Shown: piece after piece, positions 58,736 through 64,000 of the stretch | How the letters are laid out: every line of letters begins with the position of its first letter | Numbering within the stretch: position 1 is the stretch's first letter | Assembly: GCF_000355905.1 (NCBI RefSeq) | Contig: NZ_APLF01000005.1 | Span: 248,001 to 312,000 of the forward strand | Reading direction: 5' to 3' | DNA: 64,000 bases | Source: Psychroflexus gondwanensis ACAM 44 | GTDB taxonomy: Bacteria; Bacteroidota; Bacteroidia; Flavobacteriales; Flavobacteriaceae | Made by a program: the position numbers and the translations under genes | The notes under the pieces: model-generated | Seen by the model: only the letters and a program-made list of their open reading frames with translations | The model's database searches: none | What the model was told of the DNA's origin: nothing

Positions 58736-58809
58736 GGTCGCGTAGCTCAGTTGGATAGAGCATCTGCCTTCTAAGCAGACGGTCACAGGTTCGAATCCTG
58801 TCGCGATCA
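58736..58809 (+). tRNA. tRNA-Arg (anticodon UCU)
   Basis: A 74-nt cloverleaf. The acceptor strands GGTCGCG and CGCGATC pair fully (one G-U), with discriminator A58809 and no encoded CCA. The D arm has GCTCAGTTGGATAGAGC. The anticodon stem TCTGC/GCAGA encloses loop CTTCTAA with anticodon TCT (UCU). The T arm is ACAGG-TTCGAAT-CCTGT. UCU reads AGA and AGG arginine codons. It is a normal gene with a perfect promoter. Its 3' end starts the tandem array described next. Confidence 0.97.
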
Positions 58810-59250
58810 CTTCCTAAATCCCAATCCCTTTATACATAAGGTTTTGGGATTTTTTTTACCTTCGTTTGTCCACATGTTCCCTCGAGGCTTCGGGGCTGTC
58901 GCGATCACTTCCTAAATCCCAATCCCTTTATACATAAGGTTTTTGGATTTTTTTATCTTCGTTTGTCCACAGGTTCCCCCGAGGCTTCGGGGCTGTCGCG
59001 ATCACTTCCTAAATCCCAATCCCTTTATACACAAGGTTTTTGGATTTTTTTACCTTCGTTTGTCCACAGGTTCCCCCGAGGCTTCGGGGCTGTCGCGATC
59101 ACTTCTAACAATCCTAAGCCTATCTTAATTGAAGGTTTAGGATTTTTTTACCTTCGTTTGTCCACACGTTCCCCCGAGGCTTCGGGGCTGTCGCGATCAC
59201 TTTTAACAATCCTAAGCCTATCTTAATCGAAGGTTTTGGGATTTTTTTAT
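58798..59250 (+). repeat. Tandem array of tRNA-Arg 3' ends with terminator hairpins (4 extra copies, 97-98 bp period)
   Basis: Starting at the 3' end of the tRNA gene, the string CTGTCGCGATCACTT occurs five times, at 58798, 58896, 58993, 59090 and 59188, so the period is 97-98 bp. Each unit holds (1) the tRNA T-stem end plus acceptor 3' strand, (2) a hairpin ending in T7-8, (3) the sequence CCTTCGTTTGTCCACA, variably followed by GGTTC, and (4) a perfect hairpin CCCCGA-GGCT-TCGGGG (first copy CCTCGA). Units 0-2 share one terminator sequence and units 3-4 another. The last unit is cut off after its terminator. The strings CACAGGTTC and CTGTCGCGATCAC are both tRNA-derived, so each unit is like a tRNA 3' half with the T-loop replaced. 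No promoter is seen inside the units. Confidence 0.9.
58816..58858 (+). terminator. Terminator of tRNA-Arg
   Basis: AAATCCCAA (58816-58824) pairs with TTGGGATTT (58844-58852), enclosing an inner CCTT/AAGG stem, followed by T8. The same hairpin recurs in the next two repeat units, each with minor changes. Confidence 0.75.
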
Positions 59251-59606
59251 TCTCATACGTGTAGCCCCACGTGTAGCCCTTGGATTTAGTTGACTTTCAA
59301 ATAAACCCCAAGAACGAGCAGATTTGATCTCTATTCCATCGATAACTATTTCTACAAAAACAATCCCCTATTTAAATGACCTATCCCTTATTCTTTTCCT
59401 CTTGGATTTGAATTAAATGATATAGACAGCCTTATTGGTTGAGCTAATAGAGTGTTACACTATTTTTGGGAGAACCCATACCCCTAAACAAAAACATTTC
59501 TGTTGAGTGTGGAGTCAAATGAGGTAAAGGAATAAGATTAACCCCTATCAAGAAGGCTCTCCATTTTAAAAGATAGAATTCTTATTTTCTATTATTCTGC
59601 TTTCCT
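59251..59606. other. Non-coding stretch with decayed coding traces
   Basis: About 350 bp with no intact gene. At its left edge is a 10-bp direct repeat ACGTGTAGCC (59258 and 59270 region). On the reverse strand, frames between stops give a 40-codon stretch with SARSWGLFESQLNP that reads like coding sequence but lacks a start and runs into the array. I could not assign it. It separates the tRNA array from the accessory genes and probably holds remnants of older insertions. Confidence 0.4.
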
Positions 59607-60270: not shown

Positions 60271-63200
60271 TCAATTATACTTCTTAAAATTCTCCGCCTG
60301 TTCAAAAATCTCTTTATAAACTTCATCTCTATCTACAGGTGGGTAACCATTTTCAGCTAATAGAATAATGAGGTCAACTTTCAGTTCTGCTTTGATGTCT
60401 GAGCGTTTACTCCAATCAGTAAATTTGGCCTTATCATCAACCACAGCTTTTACTTTTTGCGCTAGAAGAATGAGTTTATCCTCTGGATAAGTAAAGTCAT
60501 ATTTAGTGCAAAGTTCTTTTAAAATATCATAAAATGCTTTTTCTTCAAAATCAATACCTAGATCCTTAAAAGAGCCTCGTTCTTTTTTTATAGCATGATA
60601 TAAATCTATAATCTCATCGGTAAAGTCTTCTAAAACTTCGCTCCTTAACACATCATCTTCATTACGTTCATTATAGCGTTCGACAAGTGCCTGCATTTTT
60701 TTTGAAAAATCTGTACCCTTAACTTTATTCACTTTTTTTAAATCGCCAATAGCTTTAGCAAGAAGTTGTTGCAAGAGCTTAATTTTTGTGTTAGGTAGTT
60801 TAATTTTTTCGAGTTTTGCTAAGTAAGAATCATCAAAAATGTCATATTCCTTACCATCTTCTTCTCCAAGTTTGAAAATTTCTTCAACGCCATCACTAGT
60901 TAGTGCGTTCTTAATCATTTCTTTTACTTTAGCATTCATCTGTGCTGTATCTGGTGCATCGCCCTTAGTAAGTTTAAAAACAATGGATCTTACCGCTAAA
61001 TAAAAATGGATGTAATCTTTTTCGTCTTCAGAAATTTCACCACTACCCGAGCAAATATCATAAGCCGCCTTTAATCGCTTTACAATAAACATAAAACGCT
61101 TCTCTAAATCTTCTGTGAGTTGGACAAACTCTGCTGCTTTATTTAAAGTATTGAGTTGCTCCAAAGCATTACCAATGAAGTAGCCTTTAGCATCAAACGT
61201 ATGAAATGTCTTATGTAATAAATCGAGATTATCTTTCACCACGATAATGGACTGTTCTATATCCTCGAAGTTTTGACCATCTGCTTTATTATATTGAGCT
61301 AAAGCTAAATTCATTTGCTTTTTAATACCAATATAATCGACAACTAGCCCCTTATTTTTGCCTTTAAATGTTCTATTAACACGTGATATAGTTTGTATAA
61401 GATTATGTTGTTGAATAGGCTTATCGATGTAAATAGTATCTAAAAATGGAACATCAAATCCTGTTAACCACATATCGACAAGAATGGCGATTTTGAAGTT
61501 AGACTTTTCACTTTTAAATTGCCTATCCAGTTCCTTTCGGTAGTCTTTAGTCCCTAGCGCCTCATACATGTCTTTAGGATCATCTTTGCCCCTGGTCATG
61601 ATCATCTTAATTCGTTCTATTGGTTTTATCTCACGCTTCTCCTTATCTGTTAATTCAGCTCCTTCCTCTGCTATTTTAATTTCTGCCCATTCTGGACGTA
61701 AAGCAATCACATTTTGATAAAACTCGTAAGCAATTTGTCGACTACTACACACAAACATGGCTTTTCCTTTCACCGTAGCTCCCTCACTCACTCTACTTTC
61801 ATAATGATTCACAAAGTCTTCTGCCGTGGCTTTTAAACGATCAGGATCGCCTAAAATACTGTTCATGTTTGTTGTCGCCTTTTTACTTTCTTCTATTTGA
61901 TAGTCACTAGCACCTTCTTCGGCTACTTGATTATAATATTCTTCTATCTCATACAGTTTTTCATTTTTAAGAAGCACTTTAGCAGCTCGACCTTCGTATA
62001 CAATACGAACAGTTATTTCATCTCTTACAGATTCCGTCATGGTATAGGCGTCTACAATATCACCAAACACATCTAAAGTAGCATCTATTGGTGTTCCAGT
62101 AAATCCAACGTAGGTTGCATTTGGTAACGAATCGTGCAGGTATTTTGCAAATCCATATGATTTTACTACACCTTTTTCTGTAACTCTTATTTTTTGATCT
62201 AAATTAACTTGACTCCTATGCGCTTCATCAGAAATACAAACCACATTAGTCCTATCGGTTAGCAACTGGGTATCCTCTGTAAATTTATGTATGGTGGTTA
62301 AAAATACACCACCACTTTGGCGGTCTTGTAGAAAAGTTCTTAACTCTGAACGGCTTTCTACACTCTTTATAAAATTATCACCTATAAAACCTTTGGCATT
62401 GGTAAACTGACCTGATAGCTGGTCATCTAAATCTGTTCTGTCTGTTATTAATACAATGGTTGGACTTGAAAAATGAATCGACTTCATCAACAAACGCGTT
62501 AAAAACAACATGGTAAAACTCTTACCACAACCTGTAGCTCCAAAATAGGTTCCACCCTTACCATCTCCCTCTGGCTTTTGATGGGCTATAATATTTTTAT
62601 AAAGTTTATTAGCTGCATAATACTGTGGATAGCGTGCCAAAATCTTCTCATCCTTTTTAGAGGAATCTGGAACGTAAATAAAGTTTTTAATAATGTCTCT
62701 TAAACGATCCTGATGAAACATGCCATTGATTAAAGTAAACATTGAATCTATTCCATCCACCTCAGTTGTTGAGTTTTCTATTTTACGCCAAGCATAAAAA
62801 AACTCATACGAAGCAAAAAAAGAACCTGCTTTAGTATTAACACCATCACTAATAACACAAAATGCATTGTACTTAAATAACTCTGGAATGTCTCTTTTAT
62901 ATCGCACTGTTAATTGCTCAAATGCATTCCATATAGTTACATTTTCTTTAATAGAAGTTTTAAATTCAAATACCACCACTGGTAATCCATTGATATATAA
63001 AATACCATCTGGAATCCGTTTATGGGTCCCTTCAATTTCTAATTGATTGACGATCTTATAGGTGTTGTTATTTTTTTTGCTGTAGTCTATGAGGTATATC
63101 CAAATGTCTTTTTGGCTGCGATCTTCACGTTTAAATTTAAAACCGTTAGACAGTTTGGTCATCACCGCTTTGTTAGTTTCATATAAATCTGAAGCAGGTA

Positions 63201-63408
63201 AGATTTGTAATTCTCTTATAATTTGTTTTACCTCATTAATAGTGAGCTGTTCTTTTTGATAGTGATTGAGCAAAAACGATTGCAAGTCTTCTTTTATTAA
63301 AACGTCTTCTGGTGCTCTTTCAATGGCACTGCCAAAAATATGAGGAATATCCTTTTGTCCTAAAAGTTCTATAAATGCTTGTTCCAATTGTGCTTCGGTG
63401 AATTTCAT
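60271..63408 (-). CDS. hsdR: Type I restriction enzyme R subunit
   Basis: A 1045-residue motor and nuclease subunit that translocates and cuts unmodified DNA. The PD-(D/E)xK nuclease lies near the N-terminus with Asp134 (RIPDGILYINGL), Glu148 and Lys150 (VVVFEFKTS). The SF2 helicase has Walker A GATGCGKSFTMLF near residue 295, DEAHRSQ (DEAH) and TGTPI, plus motif VI HNLIQTISRVNRTFKGKNKG. A long C-terminal helical region contacts the methylase. HsdM and HsdS are not in the window and should lie upstream (beyond 64000). Its start overlaps the AbiEii gene stop by 4 bp (ATGA), so the two are translated together. Confidence 0.93.
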   Translation of the reverse strand: MKFTEAQLEQAFIELLGQKDIPHIFGSAIERAPEDVLIKEDLQSFLLNHYQKEQLTINEVKQIIRELQILPASDLYETNKAVMTKLSNGFKFKREDRSQKDIWIYLIDYSKKNNNTYKIVNQLEIEGTHKRIPDGILYINGLPVVVFEFKTSIKENVTIWNAFEQLTVRYKRDIPELFKYNAFCVISDGVNTKAGSFFASYEFFYAWRKIENSTTEVDGIDSMFTLINGMFHQDRLRDIIKNFIYVPDSSKKDEKILARYPQYYAANKLYKNIIAHQKPEGDGKGGTYFGATGCGKSFTMLFLTRLLMKSIHFSSPTIVLITDRTDLDDQLSGQFTNAKGFIGDNFIKSVESRSELRTFLQDRQSGGVFLTTIHKFTEDTQLLTDRTNVVCISDEAHRSQVNLDQKIRVTEKGVVKSYGFAKYLHDSLPNATYVGFTGTPIDATLDVFGDIVDAYTMTESVRDEITVRIVYEGRAAKVLLKNEKLYEIEEYYNQVAEEGASDYQIEESKKATTNMNSILGDPDRLKATAEDFVNHYESRVSEGATVKGKAMFVCSSRQIAYEFYQNVIALRPEWAEIKIAEEGAELTDKEKREIKPIERIKMIMTRGKDDPKDMYEALGTKDYRKELDRQFKSEKSNFKIAILVDMWLTGFDVPFLDTIYIDKPIQQHNLIQTISRVNRTFKGKNKGLVVDYIGIKKQMNLALAQYNKADGQNFEDIEQSIIVVKDNLDLLHKTFHTFDAKGYFIGNALEQLNTLNKAAEFVQLTEDLEKRFMFIVKRLKAAYDICSGSGEISEDEKDYIHFYLAVRSIVFKLTKGDAPDTAQMNAKVKEMIKNALTSDGVEEIFKLGEEDGKEYDIFDDSYLAKLEKIKLPNTKIKLLQQLLAKAIGDLKKVNKVKGTDFSKKMQALVERYNERNEDDVLRSEVLEDFTDEIIDLYHAIKKERGSFKDLGIDFEEKAFYDILKELCTKYDFTYPEDKLILLAQKVKAVVDDKAKFTDWSKRSDIKAELKVDLIILLAENGYPPVDRDEVYKEIFEQAENFKKYN

Positions 63409-64000
63409 TTATTAATTTTTAAATTCCATTCTACTTCTTTTAATCGGTCTCTTACGGTTAATAAGGTTTTTAAAACATCACTTTCTAAAGGTAATTCACC
63501 GTAAACCAAGTCTTTAAAAACGCTATTGTAAGTTCTTTTTAATTCTTCATTCCAGATGGTCTCTGCATGTTTAAACACTAAAGCATCCTTTGGATGATTT
63601 TCCAACCATTCATTACCAGATTTGAAGCTTATCACATCATCATTACCAACTGTTAACAGCATATTATCAAACGCTGGTGAATGCAAAAACGCATCAATAT
63701 GAGATTGCTTCAAAAGTTGGTGAATATCGTAGGTGTGACGAATTTTATTTCTTAAATCATTAAAAACATCATTACCATAAGAAAACCTAACCAAACTCAT
63801 TATTTTTTCACAAAGGGTTCTTTTTACATCCAATACATGTACTTCAAAAGGCTGCATGTTATACTTTTTTGCTAATTCGAGCTGATTATTAGTGGTCATC
63901 ATCTGATAAATATAAGAACTAATTGTCCATTTATGGTAGGGTTCAAAACGGCCTAACCATGTGGCTTCAACAATAATTACATCTCTTACTTGACCAAAGT
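63405..64000 (-). CDS. AbiEii/AbiGii-type nucleotidyltransferase toxin (partial, N-terminus off the window)
   Basis: The reverse strand is open from the window edge to a stop at 63405, about 198 codons, although an internal Met at 63902 starts a shorter frame. It reads GQVRDVIIVEATWLGRFEPY, then VLDVKRTLCEKIMSLVRFSYGND (in part) and KIRHTYDIHQLL. The KRTLxEKIMxLVR segment is the hallmark of the AbiEii/AbiGii toxin family, a nucleotidyltransferase-like fold. In AbiE toxin-antitoxin systems the toxin blocks growth upon phage infection. Here it overlaps hsdR by 4 bp, so it is part of the restriction operon. The antitoxin (AbiEi) would lie upstream. Confidence 0.75.
   Translation of the reverse strand, partial: FGQVRDVIIVEATWLGRFEPYHKWTISSYIYQMMTTNNQLELAKKYNMQPFEVHVLDVKRTLCEKIMSLVRFSYGNDVFNDLRNKIRHTYDIHQLLKQSHIDAFLHSPAFDNMLLTVGNDDVISFKSGNEWLENHPKDALVFKHAETIWNEELKRTYNSVFKDLVYGELPLESDVLKTLLTVRDRLKEVEWNLKINK

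Follow-up and report, generated by a model that had tools for sequence, protein, structure and literature searches.

The tyrT repeats (rtT RNA) of Escherichia coli are tandem units of 178 bp that are located behind a tRNA gene, each starting with the last 19 nt of that tRNA; to our knowledge, there is no nuclease gene at these repeats. The array analyzed here, from Psychroflexus gondwanensis ACAM 44, resembles them in that tandem units behind a tRNA gene start with the last nucleotides of the tRNA, but differs in unit length and in that its only Rfam match is the tRNA itself. A literature search over titles and abstract openings retrieved no paper on the tyrT/rtT repeats among the matches listed. 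Integrative islands at tRNA 3' ends are another comparable system: the tail carried by the island restores the tRNA gene, the original tail is displaced, and the island encodes a tyrosine recombinase and carries kilobases of cargo. The present array shares the restoration and displacement of the tail with these islands, whereas neither a recombinase nor kilobase cargo was found at the array.

Duplicated gene 3' ends also accompany the mobile ORFs (mORFs) of fungal mitochondrial DNA, namely, at atp6 of Allomyces and at atp6, atp9, cox2 and nad3 of Glomus (PMC3630166); together with phage SegB, these mORFs come closest to the present case among known systems. Like the tRNA-nested elements considered here, the mORFs combine an endonuclease ORF located at a gene end, a carried replacement for this end and a native end that lies downstream of the insert (PMC3630166). 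They differ in residing in mitochondrial protein-coding genes and in that the Glomus cases encode LAGLIDADG endonucleases except for a GIY-YIG enzyme in atp9 (PMC3630166), whereas the tRNA-nested elements occupy bacterial chromosomes and tRNA genes, use either end of the tRNA, and form tandem arrays and hairpin-closed loops. The second nuclease-based parallel is SegB of phage T6, which is a free-standing GIY-YIG enzyme encoded beside tRNA genes that cuts inside these genes (motif RAWTSGAAC at 23/83 sites) and drives tandem amplification, a process that requires both its nuclease residues and phage recombination genes (PMC13096335). Unlike the elements described here, SegB is phage-borne, and its amplified segment holds a full-length tRNA rather than tRNA ends only (PMC13096335).

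The array probably derives, by deletion of the nuclease gene, from a homing element that is directed at tRNA loops and carries a gene end. The array itself is modest; the finding is the widespread element family behind it, to which the array most likely belongs as a decayed member confined to this genome. A search of titles and abstract openings, mostly without subscription papers, returned, among the matches listed, no description of GIY-YIG elements that reside within chromosomal tRNA genes of bacteria; this class of tRNA-nested mobile elements is apparently undescribed.

Anatomy of the array behind tRNA-Arg(UCU)

The window (the whole 64-kb stretch of DNA analyzed) contains a single tRNA gene, an intact tRNA-Arg(UCU) on the plus strand, with the end predicted at 58810 or 58809 (ARAGORN, Rfam) and taken here as 58736-58809. 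TRF detects a repeat at 58798-59202 with a period of 97, 4.2 copies and 92% matches, and the 13-mer CTGTCGCGATCAC from the tRNA tail is found in exact form five times in the draft genome, each time in the window, at 58798, 58896, 58993, 59090 and 59188, i.e., with spacings of 98, 97, 97 and 98. The first-pass annotation had described this tail array with the same five positions and a 97-98 bp period, and the TRF and 13-mer results confirm it; its statement that only the first tail copy belongs to a whole tRNA is likewise borne out (ARAGORN, Rfam and the 13-mer matches). Within a unit, sequence reading gives the order tail, terminator-like hairpin with a T-run, 22-nt spacer, second hairpin or palindrome CCCCGAGGCTTCGGGG, and next tail. 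Thus, the hairpin and T-run assigned to each repeat by the annotation are present, but the next tail does not follow them directly, the spacer and the second hairpin being interposed.

All units lie on the plus strand. Unit 1 comprises the genuine tRNA tail and a terminator-like hairpin with a T-run of type a (58798-58857, the hairpin and T-run at 58816-58857), followed by the spacer (58858-58879), the 3' end of which is the T-arm-like relic GTCCACATGTTC, and by the hairpin CCTCGAGGCTTCGGGG (58880-58895), which contains one G-U pair and, from sequence reading and folding, replaces the T-loop. Units 2 (58896-58992, hairpin at 58977-58992) and 3 (58993-59089, hairpin at 59074-59089) each consist of a tail copy, a type-a terminator, a T-arm relic and a hairpin and are near-identical; unit 4 (59090-59187, hairpin at 59172-59187) has the same layout with a terminator of type b. 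These three units were delimited by the 13-mer matches and by unit comparison. The array closes with a fifth tail and a second type-b terminator (59188-59249). Across the array, the 3' end of the spacer, CACAGGTTC, corresponds to the 5' strand of a T-arm, with one base altered in two of the four copies, and the CCCCGAGGCTTCGGGG hairpin occupies the T-loop position of the resulting T-arm-like relic (CACAGGTTC...CTGTC). Hence the tails recur as the annotation had it, but the tRNA-derived part of each repeat is probably longer than the last 15 nt of the tRNA that it had recognized.

The first-pass annotation had further suggested that the array is maintained and might be a small-RNA array, and its proposed checks included a search for the unit in relatives and a comparison with Rfam. 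The search for the unit across relatives finds the array in 1 of the 27 genomes of the genus, with the unit confined to its own genome; this distribution does not support maintenance. In the comparison of the window with the Rfam covariance models, the tRNA alone reaches the gathering score, and no other RNA family is found. The two array terminator stem-loops (of five) that were folded both fold well (z -4.49 in unit 1 and -2.91 at the last tail), whereas three T-arm hairpin regions fold no better than shuffles (z 1.25, -0.39 and 0.25). A functional small-RNA array released from tRNA read-through, as proposed for E. coli tyrT/rtT, agrees with the tyrT-like anatomy, with the well-folding terminators and with a simple pattern scan that calls no terminator in the array, including that of unit 1, a result compatible with read-through. 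Its presence in a single genome, the shuffle-like T-arm regions, the restriction of Rfam matches to tRNA and the finding of no promoter-like site by the same scan of the array nevertheless make this explanation most improbable. An 87-aa ORF that runs across the array (58963-59226) was also considered as a tyrT-like peptide and rejected because the 97/98-bp units shift the frame. Beyond the array, at 60271-63902, the window contains genes that, by eye, resemble a type I restriction HsdR subunit and a nucleotidyltransferase-type partner.

The relatives provide a candidate for the locus before insertion. The same tRNA occurs in the genome G004, where the region upstream of it is also similar; the sequence that follows the array in the window (59250-59320, the presumed native 3' flank) aligns there immediately downstream of the tRNA terminator. 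G004 thus offers a putative empty orthologous site, by which the units of the window lie between the tRNA and the native flank. The array spacer and hairpin are absent from this presumed flank. By the same comparison and the two terminator types, the window contains both a carried gene end and an original end displaced to the far side of the insert, the fifth tail with its type-b terminator being read as the latter. In G001, a stretch with 78% similarity over the terminator is shared with the window. Pieces of tRNA are found within 700 bp of tRNA-Arg in 10 of the 24 genus genomes examined (including G014; none in G003 and G017), and in G018, G019, G011 and G014 a GIY-YIG ORF lies behind the same tRNA-Arg, with a tRNA copy and its hairpin after the ORF; G005 retains a GIY fragment. 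No GIY sequence was recognized in the window array, and its units have no endonuclease ORF.

Copies of 43-50 nt of the tRNA-Arg(UCU) tail that lie 6.5-21 kb apart in three genomes (G008:C1:225949/246750, G044:C3:629278/636974 and G074:C4:21127/27656) possibly delimit integrase-type islands at the same tRNA, and they are the observation that favors reading the array as remnants of successive tyrosine-integrase islands with the tRNA-Arg 3' end as attachment site. At the window array, this reading is very hard to credit: the only PF00589 match on the contig is about 305 kb away, and the contig ends about 25 kb beyond the array; the exact tail 13-mers are confined to the array, with a single stray hit on another contig added when at most one mismatch is allowed; and units 1-4 share one spacer and hairpin. 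The annotation had proposed successive insertions at an att-like tRNA site; with no nearby PF00589 match and no distant exact tail, the element at work is likely to have been one with a GIY-YIG nuclease instead of an integrase island.

tRNA-end copies and GIY-YIG genes at other loci

Copies of tRNA ends are not limited to tRNA-Arg(UCU). Under a strict test (12 nt exact, within 700 bp), 10 of 36 tRNA genes of this genome have a copy of their own end nearby, against 2/1248 in a control in which tRNAs and flanks were swapped; the 36 genes are those read in the loci examined, the Rfam matches in the genome being 38. This test replaced a looser criterion that had given 14/36 against 5/36 for reversed tRNAs. 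The corresponding figure for the genus, 33/75, comes from loci chosen by tRNA-Arg or GIY hits and is biased as a rate, so that the 10/36 of the own genome is nearer to an unbiased value. In addition to tRNA-Arg(UCU), copies are found at tRNA-Thr, Lys (two genes), Ile (two genes), Pro, Ala(GGC), Ser(UGA) and Leu(UAG), either of the 3' end downstream or of the 5' end upstream, often with a palindrome in place of the loop; copies of the wrong polarity occur at 2 of 111 tRNA loci (own genome and genus together). The 3'-copies start mostly (40/47) at 11-18 nt from the tRNA 3' end, that is, at the edge of the T-loop and T-stem, and 33 of 45 are preceded, within 45 nt, by a stem of at least six pairs (mean stem 5.5, compared with 3.5 in shuffles).

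The same genome also has an array at tRNA-Phe, which appears to be divided between contigs C17 and C18 and shares the hairpin core CCCCGAGGCTTCGGGG with the window array. Its unit encodes HFLYIIYSKQSNEF followed by a stop, and 13 of these 14 residues are identical to the start of a longer GIY-YIG pseudogene at the far end of the array, the start codon having been lost in the unit. Given these GIY codons, at least this hairpin-and-tail unit reads as a nuclease-deleted derivative; from their anatomy and the tRNA-Phe array, the units of the window array, too, would once have held a nuclease gene. In the same assembly, several contigs (C3, C8, C9, C14, C17, C18 and C19) end at most about 400 bp away from a tRNA gene, a tRNA piece or a GIY locus, so that such arrays may break draft assemblies.

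A search of the 27 genus genomes with one GIY protein as the query yields 131 matches in 26 genomes. Of these, 53 are within 500 bp of a tRNA gene, all 53 on the strand of the tRNA, spread over 20 genomes and 13 tRNA labels ('Phe aaa' among these is a misread tRNA-Arg copy); the tRNA is 5' of the ORF in 40 cases and 3' in 13. Among the 78 matches that are more than 500 bp away from a tRNA, 18 have tRNA pieces within 300 bp and 60 have none; the controls for these 78 gave 1/78 (reversed) and 12/78 (700 bp away), the latter value probably reflecting that the displaced position often falls within the same arrays. Direct repeats flank the ORF in 43/53 tRNA-linked loci, 13/18 loci with tRNA pieces and 40/60 others, compared with 0, 0 and 1 in the reversed controls and 0, 2 and 2 in the far controls for the three sets. 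Two layouts recur: the tRNA followed by the ORF and a copy of the 3' part (e.g., Asn, Phe and Met), and a copy of the 5' part followed by the ORF and the whole tRNA (Arg(ACG), Arg(UCG) and Cys). At L217 (G120:C12) and L196, apparently chimeric tRNA copies (Lys/Val and Ile/Val) surround GIY genes, as if elements had switched tRNAs.

Some loci contain two nucleases in tandem. At tRNA-Asn, in an arrangement common to G001 and G008, the two GIY proteins are identical in 26 of 76 positions, and the tandem pair at tRNA-Arg(ACG) of G011 in 34 of 73; each protein of both pairs is nearest to elements at the same tRNA elsewhere. Such unrelated tandem nucleases, together with the putative empty site and the two terminator types, favor insertion at the tRNA, so that the proposal of successive insertions at one att-like tRNA site comes close. 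Eight tandem loci, by contrast, hold neighbors that are 84-100% identical, with up to eight units at G013:C34, which indicates that amplification also acts and that simple duplication explains these neighbors. A plain tandem duplication, in which tail and flank were doubled by slippage or unequal crossing-over and retained through drift, with the nuclease genes elsewhere unrelated, would fit these eight loci and the units of about 97 bp in the window, of which units 2 and 3 are so similar; as an account of the array as a whole, it is unlikely, given the absence of the spacer and hairpin from the presumed native flank, the two types of terminator, the same polarity at many tRNAs, the stems that precede most 3'-copies and the GIY codons in the tRNA-Phe unit.

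The nuclease family in the genus and the phylum

PF01541, the GIY-YIG domain, is detected in all four proteins tested (three from relatives and one encoded at C3 of the own genome); NCBIfam names none of the four, and the nearest solved chain to the nuclease is a UPF0213 protein (E 0.0027). In 68 tRNA-labelled proteins, the catalytic residues are nearly invariant (Y5 68/68, Y16 66/68, G18 66/68, R27 67/68, E63 65/66). A phage origin of the nuclease was considered; one query protein has no match in 50,697 phage records, and no PHROG was found for the four proteins.

A tree of 127 of the 131 proteins (four with fewer than 55 residues were dropped; 79 columns, 47 open forks) requires 16 label changes by target tRNA, compared with 44 by host genome; with all groups taken together, there are 20 changes against a mean of 64.8 after shuffling. 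For some proteins, the tRNA label was assigned from a short piece, and vertical inheritance at fixed loci would likewise produce groups by tRNA. Two clades are split by a supported branch: one of 70 rows, 6 of which have no tRNA label, and one of 57 rows, 4 of which have one. By eye, members of the latter clade are mostly located in intergenic repeats; many of its GIY genes away from tRNAs (e.g., L248, L258 and L189) are embedded in intergenic families of palindromic repeats, flanked on either side by long direct repeats, and they possibly drive such repeats. Rfam searches on 35 GIY loci without a tRNA call gave two trp-leader hits and nothing else. Some GIY-YIG genes are adjacent to protein-gene ends: at L144/L174 (G025:C1:840524-841230), an apparent copy of the 3' end of the upstream protein gene lies between two identical GIY-YIG genes, which, as far as the sequence can be read, suggests the same gene-end logic at a protein gene, and at L183 (G012:C4:90476), the segment between two GIY-YIG genes partly duplicates the 5' end of the protein gene that follows (an epimerase-like start, by eye).

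The association extends beyond the genus. Of 99 sampled Bacteroidota genomes, 64 match profile A3, which was built from 13 sequences; two of the 64 belong to the own genus. The best-scoring locus per genome was taken, not a random draw, and 29 of 30 loci were kept after one own-genus locus was dropped. A tRNA is located within 500 bp in 24 of these 29 loci, always on the same strand (24/24). An exact 12-nt copy of the tRNA's own end is present in 20 of the 24, and still in 20/29 loci when whole tRNAs are masked; the swap control is 0/734, and wrong polarity occurs in addition in two loci. Seven of ten named loci, found by sequence, are next to a tRNA (Psychroflexus, Paludibacteraceae, Pedobacter rhizosphaerae, Balneolaceae, Chitinophagaceae, Fulvivirga lutimaris and Ferruginibacter), and no tRNA is clear at the other three. 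Counting against the association, only 5 of 29 newly examined loci lie next to a tRNA in an order-level survey that used the generic PF01541 model.

The palindromes call for separate consideration. The pattern CCCGANNNNTCGGG occurs at 22 sites of the genome, many of them away from tRNAs, against 0 for the reversed pattern, and four of five PF01797 matches pass the cut-off, as would suit REP-like palindromes that were moved into tRNA loops by RAYT (Y1) transposases, with the GIY genes as passengers. There is, however, no such palindrome within 1.5 kb of the two Y1 loci examined (of five), and the duplicated tRNA ends would be left unexplained, so that this scenario, at best an explanation of the hairpins, is very unlikely to account for the array. 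The CCCGANNNNTCGGG palindrome is also seen, by eye, within apparent other repeat families of the genome (GTCATGCTG...; e.g., L100, L104 and L105), and the hairpin tips look exchangeable.

A proposed cycle of insertion and nuclease loss

The preferred reading remains a gene-end-carrying homing element, from which the nuclease gene has been deleted in the window array. A full element would consist of a copy of one end of the target tRNA, together with the terminator in the 3'-end type; a free-standing GIY-YIG nuclease gene, mostly of 80-130 aa; and the remains of the tRNA arm that was interrupted, in many cases capped by a palindromic hairpin. From the observed anatomy, polarity and association with tRNAs, the putative empty site and the nuclease-gene remnants in the tRNA-Phe array, we infer that such elements cut, home and move as follows. 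The nuclease would cut the tRNA gene in or beside a loop (the T-loop for the type in the window), and repair templated by the element would insert it; the carried end would restore a whole tRNA, while the original end would come to lie beyond the insert. Units would then be stacked by further insertions and by tandem amplification induced by breaks, and deletion of the nuclease gene would leave short ones, such as the 97-bp units of the window. This sequence of events is modelled on the cutting and amplification by SegB and on the logic of the fungal mORFs. The reverse complement of the SegB motif, GTTCSAWTY, matches the T-loop GTTCGAATC, and the tail copies in the window start beside this loop. 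The insertion of hairpins in the loops is left unexplained by this homing-element reading.

On a broader scale, it appears about evenly balanced whether Bacteroidota harbor phylum-wide, undescribed minimal selfish elements (about 300-500 bp) in which GIY-YIG lineages, each loyal to one tRNA species, insert in tRNA loops and restore the gene with a carried end, while a sister clade acts likewise in intergenic palindromic repeats and at protein-gene ends; stem-loop-recognizing GIY-YIG nucleases may then be the source of the tandem and palindromic repeats scattered through these genomes. Genes for tRNAs are indispensable to the cell and difficult targets for insertion. If this is correct, an element a few hundred bases long that disrupts such a gene while supplying the lost end would be among the smallest autonomous mobile elements. 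It would also account for the accumulation of tRNA tails and heads in these genomes, and perhaps for the contig ends found there, and would represent a bacterial counterpart of the mitochondrial gene-end-swapping endonucleases, with the question of whether GIY-YIG enzymes read stem-loops becoming testable.
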